DNA of 64,000 nucleotides from Anaeromassilibacillus senegalensis (lineage in GTDB: Bacteria > Bacillota > Clostridia > Oscillospirales > Acutalibacteraceae). The notes under the pieces were generated by a model, which was not told the DNA's origin, made no database searches, and was given only the letters and a program-made list of their open reading frames with translations. The position numbers and the translations under genes are program-made. This document shows positions 12,650 through 17,300 of this stretch, one piece after another (the first letter of the stretch is position 1; the number at the start of each line of letters is the position of its first letter). The stretch lies in contig NZ_LN868537.1 in the NCBI RefSeq assembly GCF_001261775.1, positions 744,001 through 808,000 on the forward strand, given 5' to 3'.

Positions 12650-12850
12650 TTATTTTTCATTTGATTCCAGCAAACGGGAGACGGTTACCAGTTCATATCC
12701 GTCTTCCCGGAGAGATCTTACAATTCTTTTTACAGCGGCCGGCGTATTCAATGCACTGCTTTGAAAGCGTATAATGGAGCCCGGCTTCACCTGAGACAAT
12801 ACCCTTTTGTGAATTTGCTCTGGTGGAATATTTTTCCAGTCAAGCGAATC
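12650..12850 (-). CDS. PdaB-like polysaccharide deacetylase, C-terminal fragment of an interrupted gene
   Basis: Encodes the last 66 residues of the deacetylase, beginning within DSLDWKNIPPEQ and ending SRLLESNEK. Joined at the GA dinucleotide to the 191 codons at 16720-17292, it restores QWDV-DSLDWKN in frame, as in PdaB-family proteins. Motif 5, normally ending in a conserved His (as in LFHN), reads IIRFQSS here: Gln replaces His, which may weaken catalysis. As it stands, the fragment can be read from an ATG at 12880 inside the element (MHSFSFAPYG), which has a GAGGGAA site, but that product would lack the active site. Confidence 0.8.
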   Translation of the reverse strand, partial: DSLDWKNIPPEQIHKRVLSQVKPGSIIRFQSSALNTPAAVKRIVRSLREDGYELVTVSRLLESNEK

Positions 12851-12894
12851 GCCGTACGGTGCAAAAGAAAAAGAGTGCATAAAACAGATTCCCT

Positions 12895-14415
12895 CTATAA
12901 CTGAAACGGCGGTTGCCAGCGAATGGTTATGACGTCATCCGTGAGCGCGACTTTTTCAATAAAAAGCTGTGCGATCACTTTCTTTTGCTCTAAAGAAAAG
13001 GATGGCCACTGTTCCGCCAAAACGTTTAAGTGAAACGTCTCCTGCTTATTTTGTTCCTTTTTCTGTAAAATACAGGTATGTAATTCCAATTTTTTTTGGT
13101 CCAGGTTTTCAATCTCCCTGCCAATGTAGCCTTCCACCACTGCGCTCCCCGCGGAAAGCTGTGCCAGCAGACGGTTGATTTGTTCTTCTATCTGGTCCAG
13201 TTCCGCCTGCAGGGCCCGTTCCTCTTTCGTACACTGCTCCGGCGGCGTATAGGTCCAATTTCCATGCAGCCGGACCATACGGAGAAGCTGCCGCTCTACC
13301 GCCCGCTCCACTTCCGGTACATGATACACCACGGAATGGCCGGGGCAGCTTCCGGTATTTTTCCTGCCGCTGCAATGAAAGTATTTTCGTTTTTCCCCGG
13401 CGGTGGTTCCGGTATCCACCGTCATGGCAAAGCAGCAGCGCCCACAGCAGATGATTCCGGAAAGCCAGCTGTTTTTCCCCCTGCCGCTGTTTTTTAGCGG
13501 GCTGTTCCGGTCCAGCAGACGTTGACAAACCAGAAAAACGTCCGGTTCAATTACTCCCGGATGCAGCGCGGGAGATACGATCCGCCCTGCAATGCTCCCC
13601 CGTTCGCGCGCGCCTTCAGGCTGTTTTCCATACAAATAACAGCCGTTCCCGCCCCTGGCGGCAAACGGTTCCCATGCAATACGGCATCCTTTTTCTTTAT
13701 AATAGGCAAACACATCCTCATTGGACTTGACATAGATTGGATTGCGCAGGATGCGGCTCAGCTTGCCGGAATCCCAGTTTGTATTCCCCCGCGGGCCCGC
13801 GATTCCTTCCGTATTCAACTCTTTGGCGATCTGTCCCAGAGACCGGCCTCCCTGCGCATAAGTATGAAAAACCCGCCGCAGAACCGGTTCCTGCGCTTCA
13901 TCCAATACATAGGTATGGGTTTTTTTCCCCTCTACCCTTGTTTCAACCTTACAAAGGCCATAGGGCGCCGGACCTCCCAAAAAGAATCCTTTTTCTCCGC
14001 GCGTATAATAATTGTCCCGGATTCTCTGTTGAATCGTTTCACGCTCCAGCTGCGCGAATACCATGGTGATGCTCAGCATCGCATTCCCGATTGGCGTGGA
14101 TGTATCAAATTTTTCCTGTGTACTTTGAAAATCCACACCGTACTGTTTAAACAGCGCGATCAAATTGGCAAAATCCAAAAGGGAACGGCTCATCCGATCC
14201 AGCTTATAAATAATAACCTTTGCGATCTGTCCCGCCCGCACATCTCTTAGCAGCGCCTGAAAGCCAGGCCGCTCCATGTTTTTGCCGCTGTAGCCCTGGT
14301 CCTGATAGATCCGGTACGCTTCCCCTGCGGTTTCATTTTTACATAACTGAATTTGACTTTCAATAGAAAGGCTGTCCTTCTTCTCAACAGACTGCCGTGC
14401 ATAAATGGCAATCAC
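12895..14415 (-). CDS. large serine site-specific recombinase
   Basis: Cuts and rejoins DNA at att sites through a phosphoserine link, here most likely to integrate or excise the element it lies in. It is 506 aa. The resolvase domain (1-140) has catalytic Ser9 in YARQSVEKKD and the YKLDRMSRS motif. The recombinase domain is at about 165-270. A zinc ribbon follows (CGRCC... and YFHCSGRKNTGSCPG, about 335-375). A coiled coil at about 405-455 precedes the end PPFQL. The start is a GTG at 14415. The stop is 45 bp from the left element boundary, typical of integrases next to their att site. It has its own sigma-A-like promoter. Confidence 0.95.
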   Translation of the reverse strand: MIAIYARQSVEKKDSLSIESQIQLCKNETAGEAYRIYQDQGYSGKNMERPGFQALLRDVRAGQIAKVIIYKLDRMSRSLLDFANLIALFKQYGVDFQSTQEKFDTSTPIGNAMLSITMVFAQLERETIQQRIRDNYYTRGEKGFFLGGPAPYGLCKVETRVEGKKTHTYVLDEAQEPVLRRVFHTYAQGGRSLGQIAKELNTEGIAGPRGNTNWDSGKLSRILRNPIYVKSNEDVFAYYKEKGCRIAWEPFAARGGNGCYLYGKQPEGARERGSIAGRIVSPALHPGVIEPDVFLVCQRLLDRNSPLKNSGRGKNSWLSGIICCGRCCFAMTVDTGTTAGEKRKYFHCSGRKNTGSCPGHSVVYHVPEVERAVERQLLRMVRLHGNWTYTPPEQCTKEERALQAELDQIEEQINRLLAQLSAGSAVVEGYIGREIENLDQKKLELHTCILQKKEQNKQETFHLNVLAEQWPSFSLEQKKVIAQLFIEKVALTDDVITIRWQPPFQL

Positions 14416-14445
14416 ATGCTCACCCGCCTTACAAAGAAACGGAGC

Positions 14446-15240: not shown

Positions 15241-15350
15241 GCGCAGCGGACAGGCCTTTTAAATGTTTATTCCTTCCAAATATGTACATACTAGCAGCAA
15301 TCCGATTGATTCTCTGCGAAACCCAATACGAAAGTGAGGAACTGTGCAAT

Positions 15351-16682
15351 ATGAGTAAGATTGTTATCATCGGCGCCAACCATGCCGGCACTGCCGCCGT
15401 CAACACCATTTTGGATCTGGATCCCTCCAATGAGGTGGTCGTTTTCGACGCCAACTCCAATATCAGCTTTTTAGGCTGCGGTATGGCACTGTGGATCGGC
15501 GGGCAGATTGCCGGCCCGGAGGGGTTGTTCTATTCTTCCCAAAAGCTGTTGCAGGAAAAAGGCGCTATCGTCCATATGGAAACACTCGTAAATAAAATTG
15601 ATTTTGACCGTAAAATTGTGTACGCGGAGGACTCCAGCCACTCCCAGTATGAGGAACCCTATGACAAGCTGATTCTGGCAACCGGTTCGCAGCCGATCAT
15701 CCCCAAAATTGAAGGATGTGATTTGGAAAATGTACAGCTGGTCAAGCGCTACCAGGACGCGGACGAAGTCATTCATAAGCTTCATACCGATGAGATCAAA
15801 AAGGTCGCCGTTATCGGCGCGGGCTATATCGGCGTGGAGCTTGCCGAGGCCTTCAAGCGCAACGGCAAAGAAGTCGTTTTAATCGACTGCGCCCCCACCT
15901 GCCTTTCCAGCTATTACGACGACGATTTTTGCAGCCTGATGGCGGAAACGCTGCGCAGCCATGGCATTGAACTCGCATTTAACCAGACGGTTACAAAAAT
16001 CGCCGGCAAGACAAAGGTGGAAAAGGTGATTACCGACCAGGGCGAATTTGACGCGGACATGGCGGTGCTGGCCATTGGCTTTAAGCCCAATGCCAAGCTG
16101 GGCGCGGAGCAAATCGCGCTGTTTAAAAACGGTGCTTATCATGTGGACAAAGAACAGCGCACAAGTCTGCCGGACGTCTATGCCATCGGCGACTGCGCCA
16201 CTGTCTACGACAACTCCATCGACGACGTCAATTACATCGCGCTTGCAAGCAATGCAGTGCGTTCCGGCGTCATCGCCGCCAACAACGTCTGCGGCGGGCA
16301 TGTGGAAACCGAAGGCGTACAGGGCTCCAACGGTATCAGTATCTGGGGCTTTAATATGGTATCCACCGGCCTTACGCTGGAGAAGGCGCGCCGGTTCGGA
16401 TTTGACGTCGCTTCCGCGGACTTTGAAGATTACCAGAAACCGCGGTTCATGAACCACAATGAAAAAGTAAAAGTCCGCATTGTGTATCGCCGTGACACAC
16501 GCGTCATCCTCGGCGCGCAGATGGCCTCCCGCTATGACATGTCGATGGGAATCCACATGTTCTCTCTTGCTGTACAGGAAAAGGTCACCATCGACCGGCT
16601 CAAGCTGCTGGACCTGTTCTTCCTGCCCCACTTTAACCAGCCGTACAACTATATCACCATGGCGGCATTGGGCGCCGAATAA
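15351..16682 (+). CDS. NADH oxidase / CoA-disulfide reductase-like flavoprotein carried by the element
   Basis: FAD-dependent pyridine nucleotide-disulfide oxidoreductase of 443 aa. It begins with an FAD-binding GxGxxG variant (VIIGANHAGTAAV), has a single redox cysteine in ISFLGCGMALWIGG (about residue 42), an NADH-binding 'VAVIGAGYIGVELAEAF' (about 150), and 'VYAIGDCATVYD' before the dimerisation domain. These are features of water-forming NADH oxidases (Nox) and CoA-disulfide reductases, which remove oxygen or peroxide stress. Start: the ATG at 15351, after a GTGAGGAACTG site. It ends 36 bp before the right element boundary, antisense to the deacetylase read-through tail. An unusual cargo for so small an element. 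Confidence 0.88.
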   Translation: MSKIVIIGANHAGTAAVNTILDLDPSNEVVVFDANSNISFLGCGMALWIGGQIAGPEGLFYSSQKLLQEKGAIVHMETLVNKIDFDRKIVYAEDSSHSQYEEPYDKLILATGSQPIIPKIEGCDLENVQLVKRYQDADEVIHKLHTDEIKKVAVIGAGYIGVELAEAFKRNGKEVVLIDCAPTCLSSYYDDDFCSLMAETLRSHGIELAFNQTVTKIAGKTKVEKVITDQGEFDADMAVLAIGFKPNAKLGAEQIALFKNGAYHVDKEQRTSLPDVYAIGDCATVYDNSIDDVNYIALASNAVRSGVIAANNVCGGHVETEGVQGSNGISIWGFNMVSTGLTLEKARRFGFDVASADFEDYQKPRFMNHNEKVKVRIVYRRDTRVILGAQMASRYDMSMGIHMFSLAVQEKVTIDRLKLLDLFFLPHFNQPYNYITMAALGAE

Positions 16683-16717
16683 CATCTAAACCGGCATTTT
16701 CTTTTGTATGGAGTGCT

Positions 16718-17300
16718 TCTACGTCCCACTGAACAAATAGCAGGCGCGCTTCTTCCACAGCCGCCACCAATTCTGCGTTCTCCTCCCCGTAGGGAGACCG
16801 AAACAGCTTTGGCGTTCTTCCAAGGATCGATTCCACTTTTTCATTACAGTTTTTTATCTGTGCAATGATCTGCTCCGGAGACATCTTTGCCATGTGAGGA
16901 TGCGTGTCGGAATGATTTCCAACCTCACACCCCGCCGCTGCGATTTTCTGCAGCGTATCGGTGTGCGTCTCCGCCCAGCGGCCGGTGACAAAAAAAGTTG
17001 CTTCTGCCTGATTTTGCTGTAATACCGTCAGCAGCTCCTCAATTTGCCGGTCGTTCCACTCCACATCAAACGTGACCGCCACCTGCTTATGTTCCGTTTG
17101 GACGCGATAAACCGGCGCGGAAGAAAGGCCCGCCGCCGTCCAAACCGCCTGGATACCGCGCGCACCAATCATACAGGCCAATACCAATGCCAAACAGCTG
17201 AAAAGCAGGATCAGTGCGCGTCTTTTGGAAAGAATCCAATAAATTTGGTTTGCGCGGGGACGTTTTCTCTTTTTTAAATGGTATACTGCTATAAAAACAC
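16718..17300 (-). CDS. PdaB-like polysaccharide deacetylase, N-terminal fragment of an interrupted gene
   Basis: Family role: removes acyl groups from wall or cortex glycans in sporulation. A basic N-terminus and one membrane helix (about 30-52) are followed by a NodB domain with VTFDVEWND (motif 1), GNHSDTHPHM (motif 2, HxxxH), FRSPYG (motif 3) and QWDV, where the element cuts in. The frame then runs into the element and stops at 16654. The start is problematic: GTG at 17300 has GAGGGGG overlapping it, but with a run of five T its frame stops at once. Six T would give MFFIAVYHLKK, an N-terminus like PdaB. In the frame used, the nearest start-like codon is ATA at 17292. A sigma-E-like promoter lies upstream. 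Confidence 0.8.

Follow-up and report, generated by a model that had tools for sequence, protein, structure and literature searches.

Genes described as split in spore formers include sigK, spsM, spoVFB, spoVR, gerE, kamA and yabG (PMC6957869, PMC10747680). Here we describe a 64,000-nucleotide stretch of the Anaeromassilibacillus senegalensis genome (contig NZ_LN868537.1, positions 744,001 to 808,000; hereafter the window) in which a pdaB-type gene is divided by an element of 3.9 kb with a gene for a large serine recombinase (LSR). We consider it likely that this element is cut out in the sporulating mother cell and that the gene is thereby rejoined in frame. For pdaB (also named ybaN or spoVIE) the literature that we searched, whose coverage excludes subscription papers, holds no report of such an element, and within that literature the proposal of a new host gene, made in a first-pass annotation of this DNA, stands.

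Judged by sequence, the pdaB elements resemble the known elements of split spore genes in anatomy. The gin element in gerE of Bacillus cereus ATCC10987 (PMC5595907) is, like the pdaB element, of non-phage type, encodes a serine recombinase and lies in a sporulation gene of the mother cell, and its attachment (att) site is an inverted repeat about a central dinucleotide, as is the case here. For gin, excision has been shown and a partner protein, GirX, has been described, whereas for the pdaB element excision is predicted and host genes lie in the interval. The skin elements in sigK of B. subtilis and C. difficile (PMC10747680, PMC6957869) are LSR elements that split a mother-cell gene and restore it by precise excision, as we predict for pdaB; unlike the pdaB element they are prophage-like and have directionality factors, Skr and CD1234. 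The yin element in yabG of C. botulinum V73 (PMC10747680) was likewise described recently, with a sporulation gene as a new host, but it is a prophage known from one strain, whereas pdaB elements occur in five families. A survey of LSR target sites (PMC10083194) describes diverse LSRs at one conserved gene site, in a prolyl isomerase, as we find for pdaB; the words "deacetylase" and "polysaccharide" are absent from its main text. The first-pass annotation had called the locus skin-like. This is apt in that an element with its own LSR lies precisely inside a sporulation gene, has ends with a common core and interrupts a frame that fusion restores; a directionality factor was not recognised in the interval.

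An LSR element splits a pdaB-type gene

Both halves of the gene lie on the minus strand, 3,869 bp apart. The N-terminal half (16720..17292, 191 codons) ends in CAG TGG GAC GTA directly before a GA core, and the C-terminal half (12650..12850, 66 codons and a stop) begins with that core as GAT TCG CTT GAC. When the halves are fused at the common GA they form one reading frame, with QWDVDSLDWKN across the junction. Together they cover the 191 positions of the NCBIfam model TIGR02764 (PdaB) end to end, the N half matching positions 1-128 and the C half positions 129-191, and scored singly they reach 124.1 and 52.3 bits against a curated cut-off of 237.4. In a genome search with this model the intact pdaB genes of two genomes of the genus, G001 and G003, are the top matches in their own genomes at 193.2 and 187.9 bits, also below the cut-off, which none of 14 control genomes, B. 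subtilis among them, passed in that search. The fusion reading and the model matches bear out the pdaB-type assignment, the QWDV and DSLDWKN ends and the in-frame joining that had been claimed, and the coordinates agree with the claimed spacing and common strand; the joined length of about 257 codons likewise holds, with no stop or gap.

LSR attP sites consist of inverted arms around a central dinucleotide (PMC5595907). From their sequence, the ends of the element are predicted LSR attachment sites with an attP centred on GA. The GA cores, at 16718..16719 next to the N half and 12849..12850 next to the C half (minus strand), are the only bases common to both junctions in the window, and they form the centre of a mirror symmetry. 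When the two element-side arms (16692..16717 at the N half and 12851..12876 at the C half, minus strand), each one half of the predicted attP, are placed about GA, GTTTTCTTTT stands at equal distance on both sides. With 26 positions compared per side, 14 are mirrored in the window and 15 in G002 (Clostridium sp. D33t1_170424_F3), where both arms are kept. None of the 30 other registers within 15 bases was as good in either genome, and shuffles reached the mirror score in 113 of 20,000 cases for the window and 23 of 20,000 for G002. Excision at these sites would give a rejoined pdaB junction TGGGACGTA-GA-TTCGCT and a circle junction ACGGC-GA-AGCRCTC.

The LSR itself (12895..14415, minus strand) is a protein of 506 aa with a GTG start. 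Its Resolvase, Recombinase and zinc-ribbon domains (PF00239, PF07508, PF13408) all score above the Pfam cut-offs, and its best match among solved structures is a fragment of the TP901-1 integrase. It is 92% identical to its G002 counterpart, with a dN/dS of 0.091.

The split is older than the separation of two species

Comparison with related genomes, which the first-pass annotation had proposed as a check, was made in a genus set of four genomes. G002 shares the split gene, the element and the gene order, at 89.9% DNA identity over 8.6 kb, and G001 and G003 carry pdaB whole at this locus. The same break point is present in P0003, a protein from a third source (74% identity, with 72% of the query covered), which likewise ends in an element-derived tail. 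Silent divergence between the window and G002 is 0.59 for the N half, 0.38 for the C half, 0.41 for the recombinase, 0.35, 0.33 and 0.19 for the NADH oxidase, 136-aa and 52-aa genes of the interval, and 0.25, 0.30, 0.42 and 0.94 for four flanking genes, which fits vertical descent of the whole arrangement. The suggestion of a recent insertion is thus contradicted, as the insertion predates the split of the two species and silent divergence is 0.25-0.59 in most genes of the locus.

Provided that the insertion preceded the species split, as the common gene order indicates, the divergence of the two halves postdates the insertion. Both halves have been under purifying selection since the two species parted. 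Their dN/dS values are 0.181 (N half, 191 codons) and 0.128 (C half, 66 codons), and no gap, frameshift or stop occurs in the 257 codons. Amino-acid changes number 36 in the N half, where 63.1 were expected, and 7 in the C half, where 14.1 were expected; simulations of random change in the same number of bases gave values as low as these in 0 of 5,000 runs for the N half and 3 of 5,000 for the C half. Given this selection and the age of the insertion, pdaB is probably still used, which needs rejoining, and the selection argues that the gene is regularly rejoined.

The interval between the halves contains mostly host genes. In the window the order is C half, recombinase, a 52-aa open reading frame (14494..14652, minus strand), a 136-aa gene (14782..15192, plus strand, no Pfam match), an H2O-forming NADH oxidase gene (15351..16682, plus strand; NF046103, 755.9 bits) and N half. 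In G001 and G003 it is pdaB, 52-aa gene, 136-aa gene and NADH oxidase gene, with the 52-aa relative upstream of the intact pdaB and the 136-aa gene adjoining the locus. From this difference in order we infer that only the recombinase is new to the locus and that the N half has come to stand on the far side. The relatives of the 52-aa reading frame escaped tblastn at 1e-3, and none of 2,000 shuffles scored as high in either the G001 or the G003 pair. We had entertained the three genes as imported cargo and rejected this, since their relatives adjoin intact pdaB in G001 and G003. Domain scans agree with the first-pass description of an LSR and three other genes without phage modules, Pfam and NCBIfam revealing no phage structural genes in the interval; what needs correction is that those three are host genes of the genus. 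Each of the four genus genomes has a single match to the NADH oxidase. Neither this gene nor the 136-aa gene was found in the 1.5-kb flanks searched at 26 pdaB loci of other genera. The N half may have come to lie beyond the NADH oxidase gene through a tandem duplication after which complementary parts were lost, a candidate route that would yield the observed order.

A separate feature of the C half (12650-12850) concerns the encoded enzyme. In this genus the sequence is I(I/V)RFQSSA whether the gene is split or intact, against IVLFHNGA in the remaining PdaB proteins of the order, and the His of the latter sequence belongs to a catalytic motif. The PdaB enzyme may thus be altered throughout the genus.

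Predicted excision and competing explanations

In the proposed mechanism the recombinase would act at the GA-centred ends of the 3.9-kb element, pdaB would be rejoined in frame by excision in the sporulating mother cell, and the NADH oxidase gene would leave with the excised circle. Restriction to the mother cell and the help of a directionality factor are presumed parts of this scheme. We favor it because of the in-frame junction, the symmetry about GA in all 14 genomes with both junctions, the use of this codon by other elements, the shared arrangement in G002, the selection on both halves, protein P0003, the sigma factor genes of the host and the place of pdaB in the sigma-E regulon. Two sigma factor genes of the genome are whole, a sigma-K-like one, which with 297.5 bits narrowly misses the cut-off of the sigma-K model (298.65), and a sigma-E-like one, which scores 249.2 bits on that model. 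In B. subtilis, pdaB (spoVIE) belongs to the sigma-E (mother-cell) regulon, and mutants that lack it form 5% of the normal number of spores (PMC4703394). The region ahead of pdaB (ybaN) is bound by SpoIIID (PMC517825). Because the NADH oxidase gene is single-copy, losing the circle would probably cost a growing cell this enzyme, while the mother cell dies anyway. This argues for excision in the mother cell, a timing that we infer.

Just upstream of the N half (17299..17339, minus strand) a sigma-E-like box at 17312-17339 overlaps a terminator-like hairpin at 17299-17329 (z -5.0). The box is the only match in the window, on both strands, to a strict pattern that we wrote from the consensus. The leader before the N half is conserved in G002 at 68 of 71 bases. 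Upstream of the recombinase lies a vegetative-type promoter-like site, TTGAAT-17-TATAAT (14469..14497, minus strand), identical in G002, in a region where 5 promoter-like sites were found and 5.2 are expected by chance. SP-beta and the C. difficile skin element express their recombinase constitutively and keep the directionality factor under sporulation control (PMC5595907). The pdaB locus would fit this scheme by analogy, provided that a directionality factor exists; the 52-aa protein is a candidate, though a relative also stands beside intact pdaB. We also note a 15-pair hairpin at 14438-14471, between the promoter-like site and the recombinase start, whose stem is kept in G002 while the loop letters differ.

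Several observations weigh against excision in the mother cell. Neither the rejoined nor the circle junction is present in the assemblies of G000 and G002 (0 of 2 for each), and no directionality factor was recognised among the interval genes, every one of which, besides the recombinase, is a host gene. The N half starts at 17292 with ATA, no ATG, GTG or TTG lies near the expected native start, and the database version of the protein (P0001) begins at an internal Met; our guess at the start is an ATA that follows GAGGGGG by seven bases. The first 24 codons of the N half differ from G002 by 6 replacement and 2 silent changes and show no sign of constraint, which starts only near the native start. 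The terminator-like hairpin stands directly in front of the N half. Lastly, the genome has four other NodB-type deacetylase genes, and no intact relative above 52% identity is present among the best 120 of 1,064 proteins.

A possible if rather unlikely alternative is that excision is reversible and follows no developmental schedule, acting as a low-frequency or stress-induced switch that leaves a few cells with an intact pdaB. The vegetative-type site before the recombinase would suit such a switch, as would the yin element of C. botulinum, which is excised at all time points (PMC10747680), but the circle would remove the single-copy NADH oxidase gene at a cost to growing cells and neither of the two assemblies contains an excised form.

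That pdaB is dead, an old insertion having left two decaying remnants while another deacetylase fills its role, strikes us as improbable. The missing start codon, the hairpin before the N half, the four other NodB-type genes and the want of a recognised directionality factor are what such decay would look like. Set against them are purifying selection on both halves after the insertion, 257 codons free of stops and gaps, and the retention of both attachment arms in G002; moreover, the other deacetylases with scores on the PdaB model are shared by G001 and G003, whose pdaB is whole.

We give very little credence to the halves working together as separate polypeptides that are never rejoined. 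Selection on both halves would be expected in that case as well, and the window has an ATG 10 codons ahead of the C half, but G002 has a stop 7 codons before the C half and no start codon between this stop and DSLDWKN, so a free C half is not conserved. An assembly artefact, for which we found nothing in favor, can practically be dismissed, as the same structure is present in the separately sequenced D33t1_170424_F3 and the same GA core in 14 of 14 genomes.

One codon is split in five families of the order

Genomes of the order, 394 in all, were searched with the joined PdaB of G145, and 170 matched at E <= 1e-36. Among the matches listed, which extend to 6e-40, at least 14 genomes stop at or just beyond the split residue: G000, G002, G129, G546, G530, G264, G343, G248, G514, G477, G354, G333, G473 and G537. 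G145 was added to this set from a family survey, and the C half is present in all members except G514. Both halves thus occur in at least 14 genomes of ten genera and five families (f1, f7, f13, f14 and f26), at least 12 of them outside the genus.

In all 14 genomes with both halves GA is common to the two junctions. The overlap is GA alone in eight and one base longer in four; it is 12 bases in G537 and 11 in G546. Mirror symmetry about GA beats all 30 shifted registers in every one of the 14. In 13 of the 14 the C-half match begins at D, which is no evidence by itself because the query started there; the evidence is in the junction letters. A recombinase lies on a contig with at least one half in 12 of the 14. 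In G333 it is on a separate contig, and G473 has none at 1e-110.

Eight genomes have the halves on one contig, always in the same orientation, with intervals of 3,869 bp in the window, 3,870 in G002, 4,361 in G477, 12,820 in G129, 13,666 in G537, 18,356 in G343, ~19,460 in G354 and ~34,490 in G145. The G145 element is a prophage, as 9 of 10 proteins scanned match phage families, including terminase, portal, head, tail sheath, tape measure, baseplate and endolysin.

On balance we lean towards viewing the QWDVDSLDW codons of pdaB as an order-wide docking site for varied elements, with a prophage at one extreme and a bare 3.9-kb recombinase unit at the other, that make a mother-cell gene exist only after predicted DNA excision. 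Within the genus the unit would have become fixed in the chromosome, with single-copy host genes in the excisable circle, and have outlived speciation. If this is true, pdaB would join the few genes known to be rebuilt by DNA excision, and would do so in many species of a single order rather than in one strain. The repeated use of one codon would offer natural replicates for studies of what brings such elements to mother-cell genes and of how a phage turns into a permanent part of the genome. The recombinases, whose two attachment sites follow from the sequence, are candidate tools for genome engineering as well.

Two of the other elements have distinctive contents. A C5 DNA methylase is encoded in that of G129 (locus L102, 2641-4564), together with a restriction endonuclease of EcoO109I type. 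That of G477 (L125, 1568-5929) has only the recombinase, a DUF4118 histidine kinase and a response regulator, and is a second small non-phage case, in another family. Capture of native neighbors, as seen in the genus, was rejected as a general rule, since the interval genes of G537 are unmatched beside the intact pdaB of G364, G254 and G374, with the sole exception of one weak match (32% over 147 residues). G007 was left out as a further split because two of its contigs end at the core without element sequence. These contigs (end of L039, start of L040) overlap by ~20 bases at the pdaB core, for which a strain mixture or chance is possible.

Recombinase relationships

A tree was built of 44 recombinases, one of 45 having been dropped as a fragment. 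All 13 pdaB-assigned recombinases, that of G333 by its presence in the same genome, fall on one side of a branch with 100/100 support, inside a group of 19. The pdaB label requires 5 changes on the tree, compared with 10.7 in shuffles, and 0 of 500 shuffles were as low. For six members of the group of 19 no pdaB piece is present in the stretch fetched (one contig is only 3.3 kb), nor is a spore gene evidently split among the ten neighbors scanned. The virus and phage collections searched contain no relatives of the P0121 or G145 recombinase, and the rejoined-pdaB pattern is in no viral contig. In locus L149 of G233 (5439-7370) a relative of the pdaB-targeting recombinases directly adjoins a full-length gene, which we take to be spoVS.

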